Assembly: GCA_015485435.1 (NCBI GenBank)
Contig: WFTO01000003.1
Location: 1 to 32,831 of the forward strand
Origin: Anaerolineae bacterium
GTDB taxonomy: Bacteria; Chloroflexota; Anaerolineae; J102
Reading direction: 5' to 3'
DNA length: 32,831 nucleotides
Shown: positions 8,107 to 19,149 of the stretch, piece after piece
How the letters are laid out: the number at the start of each line of letters is the position of its first letter
Position numbering within the stretch: position 1 is the first letter of the stretch
The notes under the pieces: generated by a model
Database searches by the model: none
Told to the model about the DNA's origin: nothing
The model's input: only the letters and a program-made list of their open reading frames with translations
Made by a program: the position numbers and the translations under genes

Positions 8107-8339
8107 GTTTGTGTGTCGGCGTATGTAATGCCCAGGCCTTTTGAGAATGTTTGCATTTGGCGGCGACCTGGCAAAGCAAAGCGTCGCTGATGATCGATGT
8201 TATTGATAGGCCTGGATGTAGTCCGGGTCCTATCCAATCTTATTGAAATGGCGATGTTTCTTTCGTGCAAAAGGAGTGGTTCTATGGTAGAATAAAAGGC
8301 AAATAAGACAACGTGGTCGTTCACCTGCACTTATGTATT

Positions 8340-9032
8340 ATGGTCTTTCAACATCCCACCCTTTCCCTCCTCGTTGCAGTCTTCGGGAACATCCCCGCTG
8401 TCCATTTGGCGCGACTGCAAGAAATTTTTTATGAGCGAAAATATCGCGCGGGTGAAGCGATCTTTCTGCAAGGAGATATTGCGAAATCCATCTATCTTGT
8501 TGCGGAAGGACGCGTCAAGATCGATCGTGTAACACCAGATGGCAATCATTGCATCCTTTGTATGCGAGGACCGGGAGATGTGTTTTGTCCGGTGCCTTTG
8601 TTGGATTGTGGTTGTCAATTGGGAACCGCGTGGGCGATGACTGATGTCACGCTTTTATGGGCCGACAGGGATGAATTTGGTGAAGTGGCGGCGGCGTGTC
8701 CTAATTTGCTTGCCGAGGTGCAAAAAGATTGTTTGCTTGAGGTGCGCCGTTTGTTGGGACGCATGGAATCTTTCGCATTTCATAGTGTGAAGGACCGGGT
8801 TGCCATTACGTTGCTTGATGAAAGCCAGCGGCAAGCGCAATTTGGCGGCTCTTTGAACGAGTTGCGTATAACGCAACAGGAGCTTGCTGGACTGGTGGGT
8901 GCTTCGCGCGAAAGCGTCTCTCGGACACTCTCGAAAATGGAAGATGAAGGGATTGTTGAAACATTGCGGGGAAGAATATTGATTCGAGATCGCCAAAAGT
9001 TGCAGATGCTGGTGGGACGTAAACCTGCCTGA
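8340..9032 (+). CDS. Crp/Fnr family transcriptional regulator with a Cys-rich sensor domain
   Basis: cNMP-type domain (KYRAGEAIFLQGDIAKSIYLVAEGRVKI) and C-terminal HTH (ELRITQQELAGLVGASRESVSRTLSKMEDEGIV). Start chosen at ATG 8340; an upstream GTG at 8313 is also possible. Confidence 0.92.
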   Translation: MVFQHPTLSLLVAVFGNIPAVHLARLQEIFYERKYRAGEAIFLQGDIAKSIYLVAEGRVKIDRVTPDGNHCILCMRGPGDVFCPVPLLDCGCQLGTAWAMTDVTLLWADRDEFGEVAAACPNLLAEVQKDCLLEVRRLLGRMESFAFHSVKDRVAITLLDESQRQAQFGGSLNELRITQQELAGLVGASRESVSRTLSKMEDEGIVETLRGRILIRDRQKLQMLVGRKPA

Positions 9033-9332: not shown

Positions 9333-9989
9333 ATGACCGTACTCGATCGCGTTGTTCTTTTACTTACAGGGCTCACGGCCTTGTATCTGATTTGGCGGTT
9401 TGTGCAGGCTTATCGCCAAACCAAAGCTGCGCATGATGTGTATTATATCATTTCATTCGCGGTCTTGTTGGTGGCGGGGTTGTTGCTCATTGCTTTTGGT
9501 TACGGGATTTTGGCTTCACCCTGGGTGGTGATTGTTTCGGTGCTGATTCCGGCAGGGCTTTCTTTGGGGTTAATCTTTGAGTTTTATGGGAAATATGGGA
9601 AATTGTATTTGGCGTTTGCAGTGGTGGGGCTGGTGGCCATTGCCATTACGCGATTTACGGGGCCAGAAACCGTGGCCACCATCGTGCTCGTGCTCGTGCA
9701 TGGCGTCGCGGGGCTCATTATTGTGTTTACACCTATTTTGACTGTGAAGAAAGGGTTGGCTCCTGGTGGTTTTGTAGCGGTCACTATCGGCGGCCTCTTG
9801 ATTGATTTGGGTGGGATCGCGCTCGCTTTTCTCAAGTTGGGCAAGCAATTTCTTTTCTTCAGCGAAGATGTAGTGTTCGCCATCCTCGCTCCCTTACTGT
9901 TGTTGATGACTCTCTTTTTTGCCTGGGGCTTTGTGAAGAAGATGAAAGCGCCAGGTTCACAGAAGCCGGAATTGCAATCGGCATCTTAA
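9333..9989 (+). CDS. Uncharacterised integral membrane protein (~7 TM)
   Basis: Long hydrophobic ORF; SD aaaggagg upstream; positioned directly before the nir-locus genes. Confidence 0.8.
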   Translation: MTVLDRVVLLLTGLTALYLIWRFVQAYRQTKAAHDVYYIISFAVLLVAGLLLIAFGYGILASPWVVIVSVLIPAGLSLGLIFEFYGKYGKLYLAFAVVGLVAIAITRFTGPETVATIVLVLVHGVAGLIIVFTPILTVKKGLAPGGFVAVTIGGLLIDLGGIALAFLKLGKQFLFFSEDVVFAILAPLLLLMTLFFAWGFVKKMKAPGSQKPELQSAS

Positions 9990-10162: not shown

Positions 10163-11659
10163 ATGGAAGCGTTGAAGGCCCGTTATCAATACCTATTCCA
10201 ATCAACCAAAGGGCTGGTTTTGGTGGCCATCGCCCTGATATCCCTGGAAACTGTATTTTTTGGCATGCTCTCAGGTCCCATGGCTGAAATGGGAGTGCGC
10301 GATGTTTGGGTGCGCTGGACTGGCATGCAGTTGGATCCTATGGAACGTGAGGGACGGATCATCATCCTCTATCACACCATCGCTTTGGCTGTGGTGGCGA
10401 TCGAGGTTTATTTTATCACTGGCCTGGTAAAGATGAGTGAGCGCCAAAGGGCGAATATCAATGCTACTATCACGGTCGGTTATCTCACATCGATGATCTT
10501 TGGCCTCTGGTTCGCCTACTTTGGACATAACTATATCTGGCATGGATTGTTCATTTTTGGGCAGTCCCTGGTCTTCTTTGCTGGGGTCATGCTGACCGTC
10601 GCCTTATGGCCATGGCGGAAGGAATATCGCCTGCCGCCAGACTCCCCGTATGCCCATACGCGAGGTGGACTTGATCTGGAGCGATTGGCCTTTTTCGTGA
10701 TGGCTGTGGCCACGCTGGGGTCTGCCGTTTATGGCGCTGTGGCCGGGGCGAATTTTGGCAACGGCTTTGAGCTATTTTTGGCAGAGGATGAAGTTCGGGA
10801 GGTGACCAAGACCACGTTGCAATTGGCGGTGATCGGCCATCTGCATATTATGCTGACGCTTATTGCCATCGCTTTGACCCTGATCATCGGCCGATGGGTG
10901 GACTTCAAAGGCCGGATTCATACGGTGGCAATGGTGTTCATGATTATTGGAACGATAATTATCACCTCAGGTGTGTGGATCATCGTGGTGTATCGTTCCA
11001 TAGCGCATATCATCATTAACGTGGGCTCGACGCCAGTTCTCCTGGCATCTGTCTTATTGACGATTTACACCTGGCGGAGACAGGTGCGGATTGGTCTGGC
11101 TAAAAAGGGGCTGACGCCGAAAGAGGCCGGCTTTGGCAAAAAACTGGCTGCGCTTTTACACGATCCTATGCCTTTTGGCGCCACCTGGCAAATGATGTAC
11201 ATGAACCTAGTGGTGACCGCGGTCGGCATCTTTCTGGCCATCAAGCTCGAGCTGGTTCGAGAATGGCCCTGGCGCGAAGAGCGAATCACCTTAACCGGTC
11301 ACTGGCATATCCTGGCCGGCATTATCGCCACCATTATTTTGCTGTATTATGCCGATCTGGCAGGACTCAAAGGTCGGGCGCGACGATGGTTTGGCTGGAT
11401 TGTGATCATTGGTTCAGATGCCGCATTTGCAGCAGTGACACTCTTCAGCACGAAACGTCTCTATGTCAGCGAGTCAGCGCAACAACCTCTGGTCAATATG
11501 ACGATATGGATTGCCGATATCGGTCTGCTATTGGTGCTGGTTATGCTGGGCCTGCTAATGGCGTGGCGACTTGTCGATTTGTTTAAAGGGAATGGTCGCT
11601 GGAAGGAGGAGTTGGCCAACCCAGAGTTAGATGTTGTCGGAAAGGAGGTGGATTCATGA
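10163..11659 (+). CDS. 12-TM putative heme-binding membrane protein, possible divergent heme-copper-oxidase-like fold
   Basis: About 12 TM; His in TM2 (ILYHTIAL), TM6 (IGHLHIMLTL) and TM10 (TGHWHILAGIIATIILLYYADLAGL). Start at ATG 10163 with SD GGAGG. ATGA overlap with the next gene. Confidence 0.75.
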   Translation: MEALKARYQYLFQSTKGLVLVAIALISLETVFFGMLSGPMAEMGVRDVWVRWTGMQLDPMEREGRIIILYHTIALAVVAIEVYFITGLVKMSERQRANINATITVGYLTSMIFGLWFAYFGHNYIWHGLFIFGQSLVFFAGVMLTVALWPWRKEYRLPPDSPYAHTRGGLDLERLAFFVMAVATLGSAVYGAVAGANFGNGFELFLAEDEVREVTKTTLQLAVIGHLHIMLTLIAIALTLIIGRWVDFKGRIHTVAMVFMIIGTIIITSGVWIIVVYRSIAHIIINVGSTPVLLASVLLTIYTWRRQVRIGLAKKGLTPKEAGFGKKLAALLHDPMPFGATWQMMYMNLVVTAVGIFLAIKLELVREWPWREERITLTGHWHILAGIIATIILLYYADLAGLKGRARRWFGWIVIIGSDAAFAAVTLFSTKRLYVSESAQQPLVNMTIWIADIGLLLVLVMLGLLMAWRLVDLFKGNGRWKEELANPELDVVGKEVDS

Positions 11660-12570
11660 CACGGTTGCATTTCCACTCCGGAAAAATGATATTGTTCGGA
11701 CTTCTCGTCCTGTTGTTGGTGGCTGGATGCAATGCCCAGCCCGCTACCACCGAGCCCCCACCCGTATTCGATACGGGCATCGATCCCAACGCCTGGGCCC
11801 AGGTCCCTGCCGGCAGCTTTTTCATGGGATTGCACAATCATGAGAAAACCATCGATTACGATTTCGAGATGATGGTCACCGACGTGACGAACGAACAGTT
11901 CGCCGCCTTCCTGAATGACGCCATCGCTGATGGCTCCATTACATTGGGAGAAGAAGGTGTGTTGGGCTACTATCCTGGCGACAAATTCTCAGGATACAAG
12001 CATGAAAAAGAGATCAAGGCTGGCGATTGGCTATTGTTCCCCGTGGATCATCCTGACGCTCGGATTCAAAAGGAGGGCGATACGTTTGTGGTCAAACCGG
12101 GTTATGAAAATCATCCGGCCACCATGGTAACCTGGTTTGGCGCCTGGGCCTACTGTCGCTACTACGGCTGGCGGTTGCCCTTGGAAGAGGAGTGGGAAAA
12201 AGCTGCCCGCGGCCCTGATGGACGCGCCTTCCCATGGGGGAACGACGTTGACAAAAGCAACGCCAACTACTACAAGAGCCACGATCCTTTTGAACGCCCT
12301 AATACCGTTGGTGACACCACGCCAGTGGGCTTCTACAACGGGAAGATTTATAACGGCTTCCAGACCATGAATTCCCCCAGCCCCTATGGCTTGTATGATA
12401 TGGCGGGCAATGTATGGCAATGGACAGGAGGCGTCTATGAAAAGACCCATCTTCGTTACTTGAAGGGAGGGAGCTTCATGGATTACGCGTATAACCTGCG
12501 TAGCTGGACTCGAAACAGCGCCACTCCCGAATATTTCAGTATTGCAGTTGGTTTCCGCTGCGTGCGTTAG
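11656..12570 (+). CDS. SUMF1/formylglycine-generating-enzyme-like lipoprotein, NirV-like
   Basis: Lipobox LLLLVAGCNAQP; FGE-sulfatase signatures (VPAGSFFMG, VTDVTNEQFAAFL, RLPLEEEWEKAARGPDGRAFPWG, SPYGLYDMAGNVWQWTGG, LKGGSFMD, VGFRCVR). Confidence 0.9.
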   Translation: MTRLHFHSGKMILFGLLVLLLVAGCNAQPATTEPPPVFDTGIDPNAWAQVPAGSFFMGLHNHEKTIDYDFEMMVTDVTNEQFAAFLNDAIADGSITLGEEGVLGYYPGDKFSGYKHEKEIKAGDWLLFPVDHPDARIQKEGDTFVVKPGYENHPATMVTWFGAWAYCRYYGWRLPLEEEWEKAARGPDGRAFPWGNDVDKSNANYYKSHDPFERPNTVGDTTPVGFYNGKIYNGFQTMNSPSPYGLYDMAGNVWQWTGGVYEKTHLRYLKGGSFMDYAYNLRSWTRNSATPEYFSIAVGFRCVR

Positions 12571-12580
12571 CGAGGTGGAT

Positions 12581-13492
12581 ATGATGAAAGAGAGAAGAAG
12601 TCACCGAAGTGCTGAACAACCACATCGGCCTGCAATTCTCGCCATGTTTGCTAGACTGCGACTCTATTGGTCTTTGATAAAGAGTATGCAAACCACTCTC
12701 CTGCTGATTACTGGGATGGTGGGATATCTCAGTGTTGGACACGAGCTCGCAGGACATGCCAGAGAATTGTGGTCCGTAGCGGGAAGTTTATTTCTAGCCA
12801 TCAGCGGAAGCACCGTGTTAAACATGTGGTACGATCGGGATATCGACGCCAGGATGGTACGGACATGTTGGCGTCCCCTTCCTTCTGGTTCCATCTCCCC
12901 CACGGAAGCCTTTTTCCTGGGCACGCTTCTGACTGTGGTTGGGGTCGGATGGGCCCTATTGCTTGATCCCCTTTACGGATGGATCGTCTTTGGTGGCTTC
13001 TTCTTCGATGTCGTCGTCTACACCTTGTGGTTGAAAAGACGCTCGCCATGGTCCATCGCCTGGGGAGGCGTCTCGGGCGCGATGCCATTGCTGGCGGGGC
13101 GAACCTTAGCGCTCGGCCACATCGATGCCATCGGTTTGTTGTTAGCCGCCGCGATCATCTTTTGGATTCCCACCCATATTCTCACCTTCGCCATGCGTTA
13201 CGCGGACGATTACGCCCGGGCGGGCATTCCCACGATTCCCGGCGTGTACGGGTTTCGCTTTGCCAGAGCAGTCATCGCCATTTCGAGCGTCGTTGCCGCC
13301 TCCGCGATGATTGTAGCTGCATGGGGACTGGGGGTAACCGTTGGCGGCATGTCGGTGATCCTGGTGCTATCCGCAGCCCTTCTGTTGTTGGCCTTAACCA
13401 GCGTGCTTCGTCCTTCCCAAAAGCGGAACTTCCTGCTGTTCAAGTTTGCTTCTGTCTACATGCTCATCAGCATGATTATCATCGCTTTTTGA
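12581..13492 (+). CDS. UbiA-superfamily prenyltransferase, heme O synthase (CtaB/CyoE)-like
   Basis: NMWYDRDIDARMVRTCWRPLPSG (NxxxD-x-D motif region) and FWIPTHILTFAMRYADDYARAGIPTIPGV; multi-TM; SD gaggtg. Confidence 0.85.
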   Translation: MMKERRSHRSAEQPHRPAILAMFARLRLYWSLIKSMQTTLLLITGMVGYLSVGHELAGHARELWSVAGSLFLAISGSTVLNMWYDRDIDARMVRTCWRPLPSGSISPTEAFFLGTLLTVVGVGWALLLDPLYGWIVFGGFFFDVVVYTLWLKRRSPWSIAWGGVSGAMPLLAGRTLALGHIDAIGLLLAAAIIFWIPTHILTFAMRYADDYARAGIPTIPGVYGFRFARAVIAISSVVAASAMIVAAWGLGVTVGGMSVILVLSAALLLLALTSVLRPSQKRNFLLFKFASVYMLISMIIIAF

Positions 13493-13558: not shown

Positions 13559-14242
13559 ATGCTGGGAAAATTCTTACGCATCCTTGCAATCATCCTTATG
13601 GGGCTCACTGCCGCGCTGATGGTGCTCGGCGGCATCGGCACCATCTGCATCGCCTTCTGGCCAGAAAAATATGAGTCTCTGGCGATGATGATTCCCTACA
13701 AACCTGTTTATCAGGTGGCCGCCATCCTTACCATCCTTGGTGGACTGGCCGGCATTTGGACTACCATCGCATTACGGCGGTTCAATCAGCGCCATTACAC
13801 GTATGCCGTGTTGATATTATTGCTCAGCCTGGCGACAGCCGGGGTCAAAATGTACTTCTCCAGCAGATTGCGCGGGAGCGTGGCTCCCACCAACATCCGC
13901 TTTGATTTCACCCTGGCGGTGCTCCTCTACTTCCTGTTTTTGCGAGTTCCCGGAATATGGGAGAAAGTCAAATCGGCGCAACCAAGGTCAGACGCCAATC
14001 ATACAGGCGCAGCCATTGCCGCAATCATCGGGGGCGCACTGACGCTTACCGTGCAATATTGGGCAGGTCCCGCTCATACATTCCAGGGGATCAACTACGC
14101 CGATGCGTGGCACACTCAACTGGCGATCCTTGGTTGGATGTTGATTGCAGGGGGCGTCGTTCAAATCGTGCGAGTCCTTTTACATCACGCCCAGCGGCTT
14201 CAGCCCGAGAAAAGACGAAAACGCTATCACCCCATCGGGTGA
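13559..14242 (+). CDS. Uncharacterised integral membrane protein (~6 TM)
   Basis: Hydrophobic ORF with TM-type segments; SD aaggag; lies between the ctaB-like gene and nirS. Confidence 0.78.
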   Translation: MLGKFLRILAIILMGLTAALMVLGGIGTICIAFWPEKYESLAMMIPYKPVYQVAAILTILGGLAGIWTTIALRRFNQRHYTYAVLILLLSLATAGVKMYFSSRLRGSVAPTNIRFDFTLAVLLYFLFLRVPGIWEKVKSAQPRSDANHTGAAIAAIIGGALTLTVQYWAGPAHTFQGINYADAWHTQLAILGWMLIAGGVVQIVRVLLHHAQRLQPEKRRKRYHPIG

Positions 14243-14283: not shown

Positions 14284-14580
14284 TAACCTAACGTGCGGTT
14301 CTGATAGTCTTGTGATGAAACGCCTGGTTGTCGTCAGCCTCTCATACCAAAAAACGCCATCCCATCGAAATCGTTTGCTCGATCCGTGCACGAGAAAGAA
14401 AAAAGCATCACGAAACCCAGTTTTCTCGCCTTAGCGCAAATTCGATGGATTCGGAGTTTGATGGTATAATATCGGGCTGAAGGAACCAGGTGGAAAAATG
14501 ACTCCTTTACCAAGCGTCCTGTGACAAAAGGTCATAGGGACATGATCATCAAATCACGGTTTTCTCAGGAGGAGAAAAAC

Positions 14581-16755
14581 ATGAAACGAACCCTTATCGT
14601 GTTAACGCTGTTGGTGTTTGTTGTCGCGTTAGCTGCTTGCGGCGGACAACAGACGCCCGAAGTGGATGTGGACGCCACGGTTGCAGCGGTGCAGTCTTCT
14701 GCGGATGCGACGGTAGCGGCTGCCCAGAAAGCTGCTGACGCCACCGTAGAGGCCGCACAAAAAGCAGTACAGGAGGCGGAACAAAAAGCAGAAGAGGCTC
14801 AAAAGGCCGCAGAGGAGGCCCAAAAAGCAGCTGAGGAAGCTCAACAAACCGCCGAGCAGCCCAAAGCAGATCCTGTTGCCGCGATCAAGAAAGCCGGTTG
14901 CACCGCTTGTCATGTGGTGCCAGGATTCGAAGAAGGCGGCAACCTGGGTCCAGACCTGACCAATATCGCCGATCATGCCGATAAGGACTTCATCATTGAG
15001 TCCATGGTGGATCCGGAAGCCCAAAAGCCGGACACCTGCCCTGCAGGCCCCTGCACCGCGATGCCGCCTATGCTGGGCATCCTTTCGGAGCAGGAAATCG
15101 ATGCCGTGGCTGACTATCTGTTGAGCGGCGGCAAAGTCTCTGGCGAAGTGGCCACCACCCCCACCGAGACGCCAGCAGAAACCAAGCCCGCGGCCGAAGG
15201 CGCTTTGCTTACCGATGAGGAATTTGAACAAGCCAAAGCCATCTTCTTCGATCGCTGCGCTGGTTGCCATGGCGTGCTTCGCAAAGGCGCCACCGGCAAA
15301 AACATCACGCCCGAAGCGTTGGCTGAGCGTGGCCGTGATCTGGCATTCATCAAAAACATCATCACCAACGGCTTCGGCGGCATGCCTGCGTGGGGCAAGC
15401 TTGGCATCCTTTCCGATAAAGAAATCGACCTGATGGCGCGCTACGTCCTGTCGCCCGTGCCTGAACCCCCAGAATGGACATTCCAGGATGTGAAGGATTC
15501 CTGGGTCGTGCATGTGCCTGTCGAAGACCGTCCCAAAGAACCAGTGACCGATCGTGACTGGGAGAACTACTTCGGCGTCATTTTGCGAGATGTTGGCAAG
15601 GTCGCCATCATCGACGGTGACAAAAAAGAGCTGGTCACCATCTTGCCCACGGGGTATGCCAGCCATATCCTCCGTTCTTCTAAAGATGGCCGCTACTTCT
15701 ATGTCATTGGTCGCGATGGCAAACTCAGCCTGATTGACCTCTGGCCCGAAGAACCCACCGTGGTGGCCGAAGCGCGCACCTGCCTCGACGCCCGCTCCGT
15801 GGATACCAGCAAATTCGAAGGATTCGAGGGCAAATACGCTATTGTAGGCTGCTACTGGCCGAGCGCTATGATTGTCGTAGATGGCCAGACCCTGGAGCCT
15901 CTGAAGATGGTCTCCACCCAAGGGTACGACCGCAGCCAGGGCGAATTCATCCGTGAGAATCGCGTGGCCGCCATTGTCAGTTCTCACTTCAGCCCCGAGT
16001 GGATTGTGAATATCAAGGAAGCTGGTCAGATCTGGCTGGTCGATTACTCCCAGTTGCAGAAGAATGGCCGTCCGTTGGGCGTCAAGATGATCGACACCGA
16101 ACGCTATCTGCATGACGGCGGCTGGGATGGCAGCAAACGGTACTTCCTCGAGGCAGCCAACACCTCCAAGAAGATCGTGGTCATCGATGCAAAAGAAGGC
16201 GAGTTTGTGGCCTCCATCGATGTCGGCGACAAGCCTCATCCTGGCCGTGGCGCAAACTGGGTCCATCCTGAATATGGTCCGGTATGGGCGACAGGCCACA
16301 TCAAAGACAACAAGATCGCGGTCATCGGCACCGACCCCGAAGGGCATCCTGACAGCGCCTGGAAAGTCGTGAAGATGCTCGAAACCCCCTCCATGGGTAA
16401 CCTCTTTATCAAGACCCACCCCAACAGCCCATGGCTCATCGCTGACTTCACCGTCGCCCCCACACCGGAGATGAACCGCACTCTCTGTGCATGGGATAAG
16501 AACGACCTTGAGAAGGATCCGGTTTGCTGGGAGATCGAAGGCGCTGCCGACTTAAGCGCACGAGCCGTTCATATCGAATTCAACAAGGATGGCACCGAAT
16601 TCTGGGTCTCCCTTTGGGGCAACGTCGATACGCCAACGGCCCTCGTCATCTACGACTCGCAGACCCTGGAAGAGGTCGGACGGATCACCGGCGATTGGCT
16701 CATCACCCCCACAGGCAAGTTTAACGTCTACAACACCGCACACGACATCTACTAA
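14581..16755 (+). CDS. nirS: Cytochrome cd1 nitrite reductase NirS, lipoprotein form with extra N-terminal cytochrome c domain
   Basis: Lipobox VVALAACGG; Ala-rich coiled coil; CTACH (14899-14913) and CAGCH (15256-15270) heme-c motifs; cyt d1 signatures (DVGKVAIIDGD, SSHFSPEWIVNIKEAGQIWLVDY, LHDGGWDGSKRYFLEAANTS, KPHPGRGANWVHPEYGPVWATGH). SD aggagg. Confidence 0.95.
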   Translation: MKRTLIVLTLLVFVVALAACGGQQTPEVDVDATVAAVQSSADATVAAAQKAADATVEAAQKAVQEAEQKAEEAQKAAEEAQKAAEEAQQTAEQPKADPVAAIKKAGCTACHVVPGFEEGGNLGPDLTNIADHADKDFIIESMVDPEAQKPDTCPAGPCTAMPPMLGILSEQEIDAVADYLLSGGKVSGEVATTPTETPAETKPAAEGALLTDEEFEQAKAIFFDRCAGCHGVLRKGATGKNITPEALAERGRDLAFIKNIITNGFGGMPAWGKLGILSDKEIDLMARYVLSPVPEPPEWTFQDVKDSWVVHVPVEDRPKEPVTDRDWENYFGVILRDVGKVAIIDGDKKELVTILPTGYASHILRSSKDGRYFYVIGRDGKLSLIDLWPEEPTVVAEARTCLDARSVDTSKFEGFEGKYAIVGCYWPSAMIVVDGQTLEPLKMVSTQGYDRSQGEFIRENRVAAIVSSHFSPEWIVNIKEAGQIWLVDYSQLQKNGRPLGVKMIDTERYLHDGGWDGSKRYFLEAANTSKKIVVIDAKEGEFVASIDVGDKPHPGRGANWVHPEYGPVWATGHIKDNKIAVIGTDPEGHPDSAWKVVKMLETPSMGNLFIKTHPNSPWLIADFTVAPTPEMNRTLCAWDKNDLEKDPVCWEIEGAADLSARAVHIEFNKDGTEFWVSLWGNVDTPTALVIYDSQTLEEVGRITGDWLITPTGKFNVYNTAHDIY

Positions 16756-17187: not shown

Positions 17188-19149
17188 TCAGAGCAGGTGC
17201 GAACTGCGCTCAGGGTTCTCGGCGTCACCCAAGCGGACCACCAATACATTGGCCTGGGTGCGATGGCGCAAGCTGTTGACCGTGGCGCCATGAACCAGGT
17301 CTGACACCCCCGAATGTCCATGCGCGCCAACGATGATGATCTCCACCTGCAAAGCCTCTGCTAAACGTGCCAGTTCCGCAGCAGGATCCCCCGCACCCAA
17401 ATGCACCTCCACTGTCATGCCCGGTCGTTGAATCATTTCCGCCAGGGTGCGCAACCTTTCTAAATCCCTCTTGACCTCGATATCCTCCGCATCAAGGCGG
17501 AGCATGCGCGCAGCTGGACTTTCCACCACATGCAACAAGTGGATCGTGGCTTTTTCTCGGTCTGCAATACGTAACCCTTCGGCGAGCAACTTCTCCTCTT
17601 CCCCGCCAAAATCCAGTGCGATCGCAACTCGGCGATAAGGTCTGGGATCAGGAATAGGAGCCGTTTCAATCCCGGGAGCGCCATGAACATCCTTTACGCC
17701 TGGTGGAGTGGGAAGAAAAGCAAATCGTTTCGGTAACCAGGGACGGAATGTGACATAAAATAATAGGATACCAATGACCAAAATGAAGGGAATCACCATG
17801 GCTTCCAACAGCCATCGTCGTTCTCCGGCGGTGGCAAGCGCTTGCCCCACCTCCTCGCGAACCAGGTTGGCGTTAAGGAGTATAATAATGATAGCAATGA
17901 GCCAGGCTAACGTCTGAATCCATGGTTTGATGGCGAAGTGACCCATGCGGCGTTTGTCAGCCACAAAATGAATCAAGGGAATCACGGCAAAGGGCAATTG
18001 CAACGACAACACCACCTGACTGAGAACGAGCAGCTGCCCGGTGGAATCCTCCCCGAAATACAGGATGGTGAATATGGCCGGGGTGATGGCCAGAGTGCGG
18101 GTAATCAGTCGGCGCAGCCAGGGGCGAATGCGAAGATTGAGGTATCCCTCCATAACAATCTGCCCCGCCAATGTCCCCGTAATTGTCGAGCTTTGTCCTG
18201 ACGCCAGTAATGCGATGGCAAAAGCGATGGGCGCAATCGATGCGCCCACCAGAGGTTCAAGCAAACGATATGCATCCTGGATTTCGGCAACCTGATAGAG
18301 CCCATGGCGATAAAATACGGCAGCCGCCATGATCAGGATAGCGGCGTTGATAAAAAATGCCAGGTTCAGAGCCACCGCGGAATCGATGGTATTCCAGCGA
18401 ATCGCGTCTTTGATAGCTGCCCGGTCGCGACCAATCTTTCTGGTTTGCACTAAGGCTGAATGCAGATAGAGATTATGGGGCATCACCGTGGCCCCGAGCA
18501 TGCCCACCGCAATGTAAAGCGCGGTGGCGTCGGGAATACTGGGAACAAATCCTTGGGCGATTCCATGCCAGTCGGGTTGAGAGAGAAAGATTTCGATCAC
18601 AAACGCGGCGCCAATGGTGCCCACCAGGGCCAGCACAACGGCCTCCAATTTTCGGATGCCGAAATGCGATAGCAACAGCAATAGCAGCGTGTCTAATGCG
18701 GTCAAAAGCACGCCATAAATGAGTGGTAAGCCAAACAGTAAATTCAGTGCGATGGCGGAACCGAGCACTTCGGCCAGGTCGGTGGCGGTGATGGCAATTT
18801 CGGCAAGTATGTAAAGCGGAATGTTGACGATCTGTGGGTACGATTCGTGGCTGGCTTGCGCCAGGTCGCGGCGCGCAACAATGCCCAACCTGGCCGAAAG
18901 GCTTTGCAACAAAATCGCCATCAGGTTAGACATTAACAGCACCCAGATCAGGGTGTAATTATACCTGCTGCCCGCCGCCAGATCTGTGGCCCAGTTTCCT
19001 GGATCCATGTAGCCCACTGCAGCCATCAGCGCCGGCCCCGTGACGGCGAACCAGCGACGCCACCATGTTGCATAGCGTGGGATGGCTACGGTTTCATGCA
19101 CCTCGGCCAAAGAATGGTTTTGGGCATTCTTATCATTTGGCTTGGCCAT
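17188..19149 (-). CDS. Nramp-family divalent metal transporter with C-terminal UspA domain
   Basis: Nramp motifs DPGNWATDLAAGSRY and MPHNLYLHSALVQTRK; C-terminal Usp domain YRRVAIALDFGGEEEKLLAEGLRIA...IIIVGAHGHSGVSDLVHGATVNSLRHRTQANVLVV. Confidence 0.93.
   Translation of the reverse strand: MAKPNDKNAQNHSLAEVHETVAIPRYATWWRRWFAVTGPALMAAVGYMDPGNWATDLAAGSRYNYTLIWVLLMSNLMAILLQSLSARLGIVARRDLAQASHESYPQIVNIPLYILAEIAITATDLAEVLGSAIALNLLFGLPLIYGVLLTALDTLLLLLLSHFGIRKLEAVVLALVGTIGAAFVIEIFLSQPDWHGIAQGFVPSIPDATALYIAVGMLGATVMPHNLYLHSALVQTRKIGRDRAAIKDAIRWNTIDSAVALNLAFFINAAILIMAAAVFYRHGLYQVAEIQDAYRLLEPLVGASIAPIAFAIALLASGQSSTITGTLAGQIVMEGYLNLRIRPWLRRLITRTLAITPAIFTILYFGEDSTGQLLVLSQVVLSLQLPFAVIPLIHFVADKRRMGHFAIKPWIQTLAWLIAIIIILLNANLVREEVGQALATAGERRWLLEAMVIPFILVIGILLFYVTFRPWLPKRFAFLPTPPGVKDVHGAPGIETAPIPDPRPYRRVAIALDFGGEEEKLLAEGLRIADREKATIHLLHVVESPAARMLRLDAEDIEVKRDLERLRTLAEMIQRPGMTVEVHLGAGDPAAELARLAEALQVEIIIVGAHGHSGVSDLVHGATVNSLRHRTQANVLVVRLGDAENPERSSHLL

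Follow-up and report, generated by a model that had tools for sequence, protein, structure and literature searches.

A divergent membrane protein family with a predicted heme-copper oxidase fold, linked to heme o synthase genes

Subunit I proteins of the heme-copper oxidases (HCOs; A, B and C types) have a 12-transmembrane (TM) fold, with a His in TM2 and an HxH pair in TM10. Their active site includes a TM6 HPEVY motif with its Tyr and an HH after TM7. The NO reductases cNOR and qNOR (NorB) have the HCO fold without the cross-linked Tyr and carry a TM6 Glu ligand set; we know of no NorB genes with a dedicated heme o synthase (CtaB). NnrS is a 12-TM heme/Cu protein of NO stress. In Chloroflexi, the eNOR can be recognised as an HCO from its sequence, has a diagnostic Gln and a cupredoxin subunit, and comes from a genome with C1-C2-NirS, a nitrite reductase architecture described in the same work (PMC8756737). 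Schwartz et al. found most Chloroflexi genomes with C1-C2-NirS to be without a recognisable NO reductase (PMC8756737).

The window, the whole stretch of DNA analysed here, is 32,831 nucleotides of an Anaerolineae bacterium of the phylum Chloroflexota (assembly GCA_015485435.1, contig WFTO01000003.1, positions 1 to 32,831). It encodes a 498-aa protein, here called HCOx, that is best read as belonging to a deeply divergent family with a predicted HCO subunit I fold, not described before. A literature search, with most subscription journals outside its coverage, found no description of the family. The gene and its neighbours, in order, are as follows.

8313..9032, + strand: CRP/FNR-family regulator, upstream (profile searches)
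9333..9989, + strand: TM6a, a small polytopic membrane protein outside known families; one His (H123) is invariant
10163..11659, + strand: HCOx, 498 aa, predicted 12-TM HCO-fold protein (ORF, conservation, AlphaFold2, Foldseek)
11656..12570, + strand: FGE/SUMF1-fold lipoprotein (PF03781, E 2.4e-40), conserved partner of HCOx
12542..13492, + strand: CtaB/CyoE heme o synthase (TIGR01473, 213.8 bits against a cut-off of 210.3), conserved partner
13559..14242, + strand: TM6b, second small membrane protein, with homologues in 55 of 120 loci
14521..16755, + strand: NirS (cytochrome cd1) of the C1-C2-NirS type, with two cytochrome c domains (two CxxCH) and a full Cytochrom_D1 domain (E 3.7e-119)

HCOx sequence and predicted fold

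The HCOx ORF begins with ATG at 10163, and its stop codon, which ends at 11659, is overlapped by the start of the lipoprotein gene. An AlphaFold2 model was built from a 52-sequence alignment and has a pLDDT of 88.5 and a pTM of 0.91. The roughly 12 hydrophobic segments seen in an earlier note on this DNA appear in the model as 12 long helices, at residues 15–37, 59–88, 93–120, 124–147, 172–196, 218–245, 251–275, 278–314, 335–360, 370–399, 404–429 and 437–474. Among 96 distinct sequences, seven His are invariant (H71, H127, H226, H228, H282, H380 and H382), as are R65, Y70, Y119, R174, E208, R212, D334, E373, W381 and W412. The earlier note had pointed to His in TM2, TM6 and TM10; these are H71, H226/H228 and H380/H382, and their invariance in both 53 aligned and 96 distinct homologues indicates that they are not there by chance. 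H127 and H282 are two further invariant His that it had not listed. It had also seen no HPEVY and no TM7 HH, and both motifs are indeed absent.

10373..10375, + strand: H71 codon, TM2 (helix 59–88), invariant in 96 of 96; predicted low-spin heme ligand
10541..10543, + strand: H127 codon, start of TM4, invariant; without counterpart among HCO ligands
10838..10846, + strand: H226-L-H228 codons, TM6; H226 falls on the CuB/FeB His in an hhalign alignment whose overall score is not significant
11006..11008, + strand: H282 codon, TM7–TM8 junction or start of TM8, invariant; pseudo-symmetry mate of H127
11300..11308, + strand: H380-W-H382 codons, TM10, invariant; in the register of the HxH heme-ligand pair of HCOs

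The model was compared with the PDB using Foldseek. HCO or qNOR subunit I proteins (Thermus ba3, Pseudomonas cbb3, aa3 oxidases and Neisseria qNOR) occupy all of ranks 1–18 at probabilities of 0.99–1.00, with nearly full-length alignments and query-normalised TM-scores of 0.46–0.62. Thermus ba3 is the best match (3s3b and 4g7s), and qNOR 8zgp_A is among the others. Non-HCO matches among those listed score 0.25 or below. No match reached E<=0.001, the best being 1.7e-3, so the case for an HCO fold rests on consistency, with one fold family on top over nearly the full length. The predicted core is a 12-TM bundle in three 4-TM arcs.

By sequence, HCOx is far from known HCOs. Searches of Pfam, NCBIfam and PDB sequences (phmmer, hmmsearch) gave nothing significant. 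The window protein matches no Pfam family, PF00115 included, nor does PF00115 appear in the family listing for 52 members. Identity to subunit I proteins is 11–14% over the listed matches. Alignment by hhalign to 25 HCO sequences or profiles gave no significant match; the best path, not significant overall, places GHWH of TM10 on GHFH/HGH in three templates. In the same register, the TM7 HH positions of HCOs are non-His in HCOx, and H282 lies about seven residues later. Other hhalign runs against HCOs were set aside, because their high probabilities came from short segments that are not plausible.

The heme-His pattern of HCOs is present as H71 in TM2 and H380/H382 in TM10, where binding is predicted. 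The CuB/FeB set is incomplete: H226 and H228 are found in TM6, the HH after TM7 is absent, and H282 stands alone. The HPEVY Tyr position is occupied by the invariant M230, four residues after H226, and a cross-linked Tyr elsewhere in the protein is possible. The TM6 motif HLHIML contains no Glu, so that HCOx differs from cNOR and qNOR in this ligand set as well as in the missing HH. H127 and H228 are invariant additions relative to HCOs. Since HCOx lacks an HCO profile match and the CuB His set and has the predicted fold and the heme His, it is better regarded as an HCO-related variant than as a plain member. Unlike eNOR, it is not recognisable by sequence. NnrS is also polytopic and tied to NO metabolism; its family, PF05940, was not matched by HCOx in Pfam scans.

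An internal repeat is detectable, with TM5–8 aligning to TM9–12 at 94.7% probability and H226/H228 pairing with H380/H382. In the alignment of TM1–4 to TM5–8, which is not significant, H71 falls opposite H228 and H127 opposite H282. The spacing is 155 residues from H127 to H282, 155 from H71 to H226 and 157 from H71 to H228. From this repeat we infer that the pseudo-threefold axis of HCOs may relate as many as three sites.

The structure prediction and Foldseek search that the earlier note had proposed thus returned a 3x4-TM HCO-like arrangement, and no close homologue with an unrelated known function was found. Its suggestion of a divergent HCO-fold member with an altered active site finds support in the model and its fold matches, the TM2/TM10 ligand pattern and the dedicated heme o synthase.

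Gene unit and distribution

In the survey of 120 HCOx loci, some of which are one place retrieved twice, the FGE-fold lipoprotein gene is found in 105, CtaB in 104 and TM6a homologues in 77. The lipobox Cys of the lipoprotein is kept in 74 of 79. Its FGE fold, that of the superfamily of NirV, is assigned from sequence with certainty. Identity as NirV itself was considered and not established; the best plasmid matches are about 30% identical, and the two inspected adjoin sulfatases. TM6a matches no Pfam family, and its fold search was uninformative, giving no clear match (rhodopsins and GPCRs at TM about 0.4–0.6). Relatives of TM6a are encoded in L116 and L102, among other loci, and the family often has a second paralogue downstream of CtaB. 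A linked heme o synthase is a feature that HCOx shares with HCOs, but its core unit has no subunit II gene, in which it differs from them. The genome has a second HCOx copy, 62% identical to the first, which lies on a different contig with lipoprotein and CtaB genes of its own.

Beyond the core unit, no common denitrification gene was found among neighbour families. Of the 112 neighbour genes scanned, 7 code for TetR-type regulators whose C-terminal domain is YsiA-like (L086:571-1230 is an example), and a TetR-type cluster occurs in 10 loci.

HCOx matches were found in 65 of 396 genomes of the class, which we split into a close branch of 49 and a divergent branch of 16 (about 29–45% identity). 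Across GTDB species genomes, 318 stretches in several phyla are related to HCOx. Going by record titles, sources among the best 80 of these include Chloroflexota, Aminicenantes, Calditrichota, Neomarinimicrobiota, KSB1, Melioribacteraceae, Ignavibacteria, Eisenbacteria and Bacteroidales. A plasmid search found no HCOx.

Three divergent-branch loci (L039, L040 and L036; 36–41% identity) have, upstream of HCOx, an HCO gene in which the TM6 His is replaced (WWGLDMVADGNV), and in L040 this gene comes after a cupredoxin-like ORF. CtaB lies 3′ of HCOx in L042–L044 and L035. The upstream genes (L040:6073-7686, L039:9319-10944 and L036:1866-3476) encode HCO-like subunit I proteins in which the TM6 metal His is replaced (WWGLDMVADGNVLIY) and the HH and the TM10 HAH are kept.

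Heme o, nitrite and NO

Seven close-branch Chloroflexota genomes (G164, G174, G366, G091, G054, G177 and G310) have HCOx and no COX1 match at E<=1e-20; possible gaps in the MAGs are a caveat for this absence, although G164 is 99% complete. Each has a single good CtaB homologue, and it adjoins HCOx, which suggests heme o use by HCOx itself. The most economical reading is that the CtaB of the unit serves HCOx. G039, an eighth genome with no COX1 match, carries a second CtaB. None of the eight gave a CtaA match. Five of them (G174, G091, G054, G177 and G310; completeness 73–95%) have neither a COX1 match at that threshold nor a bd oxidase match. Outside Chloroflexota, 9 of 20 member genomes, of unstated completeness, have no COX1 match at E<=1e-5. 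G213, G027 and G111 each carry two good CtaB copies; of these genomes, G213 and G027 have one copy near a canonical COX1 and one next to HCOx. Counting against the heme o argument, heme a, which is made from heme o, is reported to be in use outside HCOs in some archaea (PMC12808453).

The neighbour that the earlier note took for nirS (14521..16755) is indeed nirS. HCOx shares nirS linkage with cNOR and qNOR for part of the family, and shares with eNOR its phylum and an origin in a genome with C1-C2-NirS. Full NirS (over 400 bits) is commoner in HCOx members, being found in 12 of 49 close-branch genomes against 26 of the 396 of the class (odds ratio 7.7, p about 9e-6, kinship ignored). It adjoins HCOx in the genus of the window, and also in L091 and L099, which belong to a different clade and have a different arrangement. 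However, most member genomes are without nirS. Among 44 checked, NirK (above the curated cut-off) is found in 13, nirS or nirK in 20, and neither in 24. All eight COX1-less members have neither gene. An obligate partnership with NirS or NirK as a general rule was therefore rejected. The partner role for NirS proposed earlier finds partial support in the enrichment and in the adjacency in two clades, but does not fit the 24 genomes with neither gene; the association is real, but it is not the rule.

The NirS proteins of L091 (5493-7241) and L099 (232-1974), both from Chloroflexota, have one cytochrome c domain with a single CxxCH and are encoded upstream of TM6a and HCOx. No C2-NirS without C1 was reported in Chloroflexi by PMC8756737.

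HCOx is a candidate for the missing NO reductase activity of some C1-C2-NirS Chloroflexi. The host genome of the window also has a NorB-like HCO and a bd oxidase, so reduction of NO or O2 by HCOx is not required there.

Candidate function

A bis-His low-spin heme is predicted between H71 of TM2 and H382 of TM10, and H380 would hold a second, gas-binding heme. Another metal or heme site is perhaps formed by H226 and H228 with H282. The adjoining CtaB probably supplies heme o for one or more of the hemes. Electrons would probably come from quinol or another donor, because the core unit contains no cytochrome c or cupredoxin subunit. The most likely reaction would be reduction of a small gas, with NO favoured over O2 because the TM6 position of the Tyr that oxidases use in O2 chemistry holds no Tyr, and because nirS is enriched. 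That HCOx is a heme-o-bearing redox protein with the HCO fold we judge fairly probable. NO as its substrate is plausible, at somewhat less than an even chance. The full proposal is offered tentatively: HCOx may be a new class of HCO-fold enzyme, invisible to sequence models, that receives heme o from a dedicated synthase, has up to three heme or metal sites (H71/H382, H380 with H228/H282, and H226/H127) and reduces NO or O2 in several phyla, some seemingly without a canonical oxidase.

Should this hold, an entire branch escapes surveys in which aerobic respiration and denitrification are traced with HCO sequence models. HCOx would be one answer to the NO reductase gap in most C1-C2-NirS Chloroflexi (PMC8756737), the window host itself having a NorB-like gene. 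It would also serve as an outlier when the early history of the HCO fold is studied, since the repeat between TM5–8 and TM9–12 is still detectable by sequence.

HCOx could instead work apart from denitrification, as a heme-o quinol:O2 reductase or oxygen scavenger in microaerobes and anaerobes; we think this unlikely while giving it more weight than the other alternatives. The five genomes without COX1 and bd oxidase matches keep HCOx and CtaB, and most members have no nir genes. Heme o serves oxidases, and NorB-type NO reductases use heme b. However, the Tyr at the HPEVY position and the full CuB His triad of O2-reducing HCOs are missing, and the enrichment and linkage of nirS would be left unexplained.

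A slightly less likely role is that of a heme-only, quinol-oxidising electron-transfer protein, its hemes a wire to periplasmic acceptors such as NirS. By the pseudo-threefold repeat the seven invariant His could hold up to three hemes, the motifs of gas-reducing HCOs are missing, and NirS adjoins HCOx in two separate clades. NirS is missing from most members, however, and to our knowledge electron-transfer hemes of this kind do not need a dedicated heme o synthase.

An assembly factor for canonical HCOs, or one like heme a synthase, is improbable. CtaA often adjoins CtaB, as HCOx does, and the paired His of CtaA/Cox15 in even-numbered helices (TM2, TM4, TM6 and TM8) are resembled by those of HCOx; divergent HCOx also follows an HCO gene, with the cupredoxin-like gene before it in L040. 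However, CtaA/Cox15 has 8 TM helices against 12, HCOx has no PF02628 match, and no CtaA is among its 50 best fold matches. The distributions of CtaA and COX1 disfavour this reading, since CtaA is matched separately in many member genomes (30 of 49 in the close branch) and eight genomes with HCOx have no COX1 match at E<=1e-20.

Least probable of all is that HCOx is an unrelated 12-TM protein and the HCO match a false positive of membrane-protein fold searching, for although no E-value fell below 0.001, sequence-level support is absent and TM6a, treated alike, gave similarly loose matches to rhodopsins and GPCRs, a single family fills ranks 1–18 over nearly the full length far above the other listed matches, and the His pattern and CtaB linkage independently agree with the HCO fold.

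Two further genes of the host were noted. At 17188-19149 on the − strand, the window encodes a fusion of an Nramp-type metal transporter with a universal stress protein domain. Another contig of the host genome (C182; L154:1336-2919) encodes an A-type-like HCO paralogue with a PF00115 match and relatives in L181–L184. Its motifs are degraded, with QSFWIFAQTSVY in TM6 and no HH, and related genomes carry similar genes.
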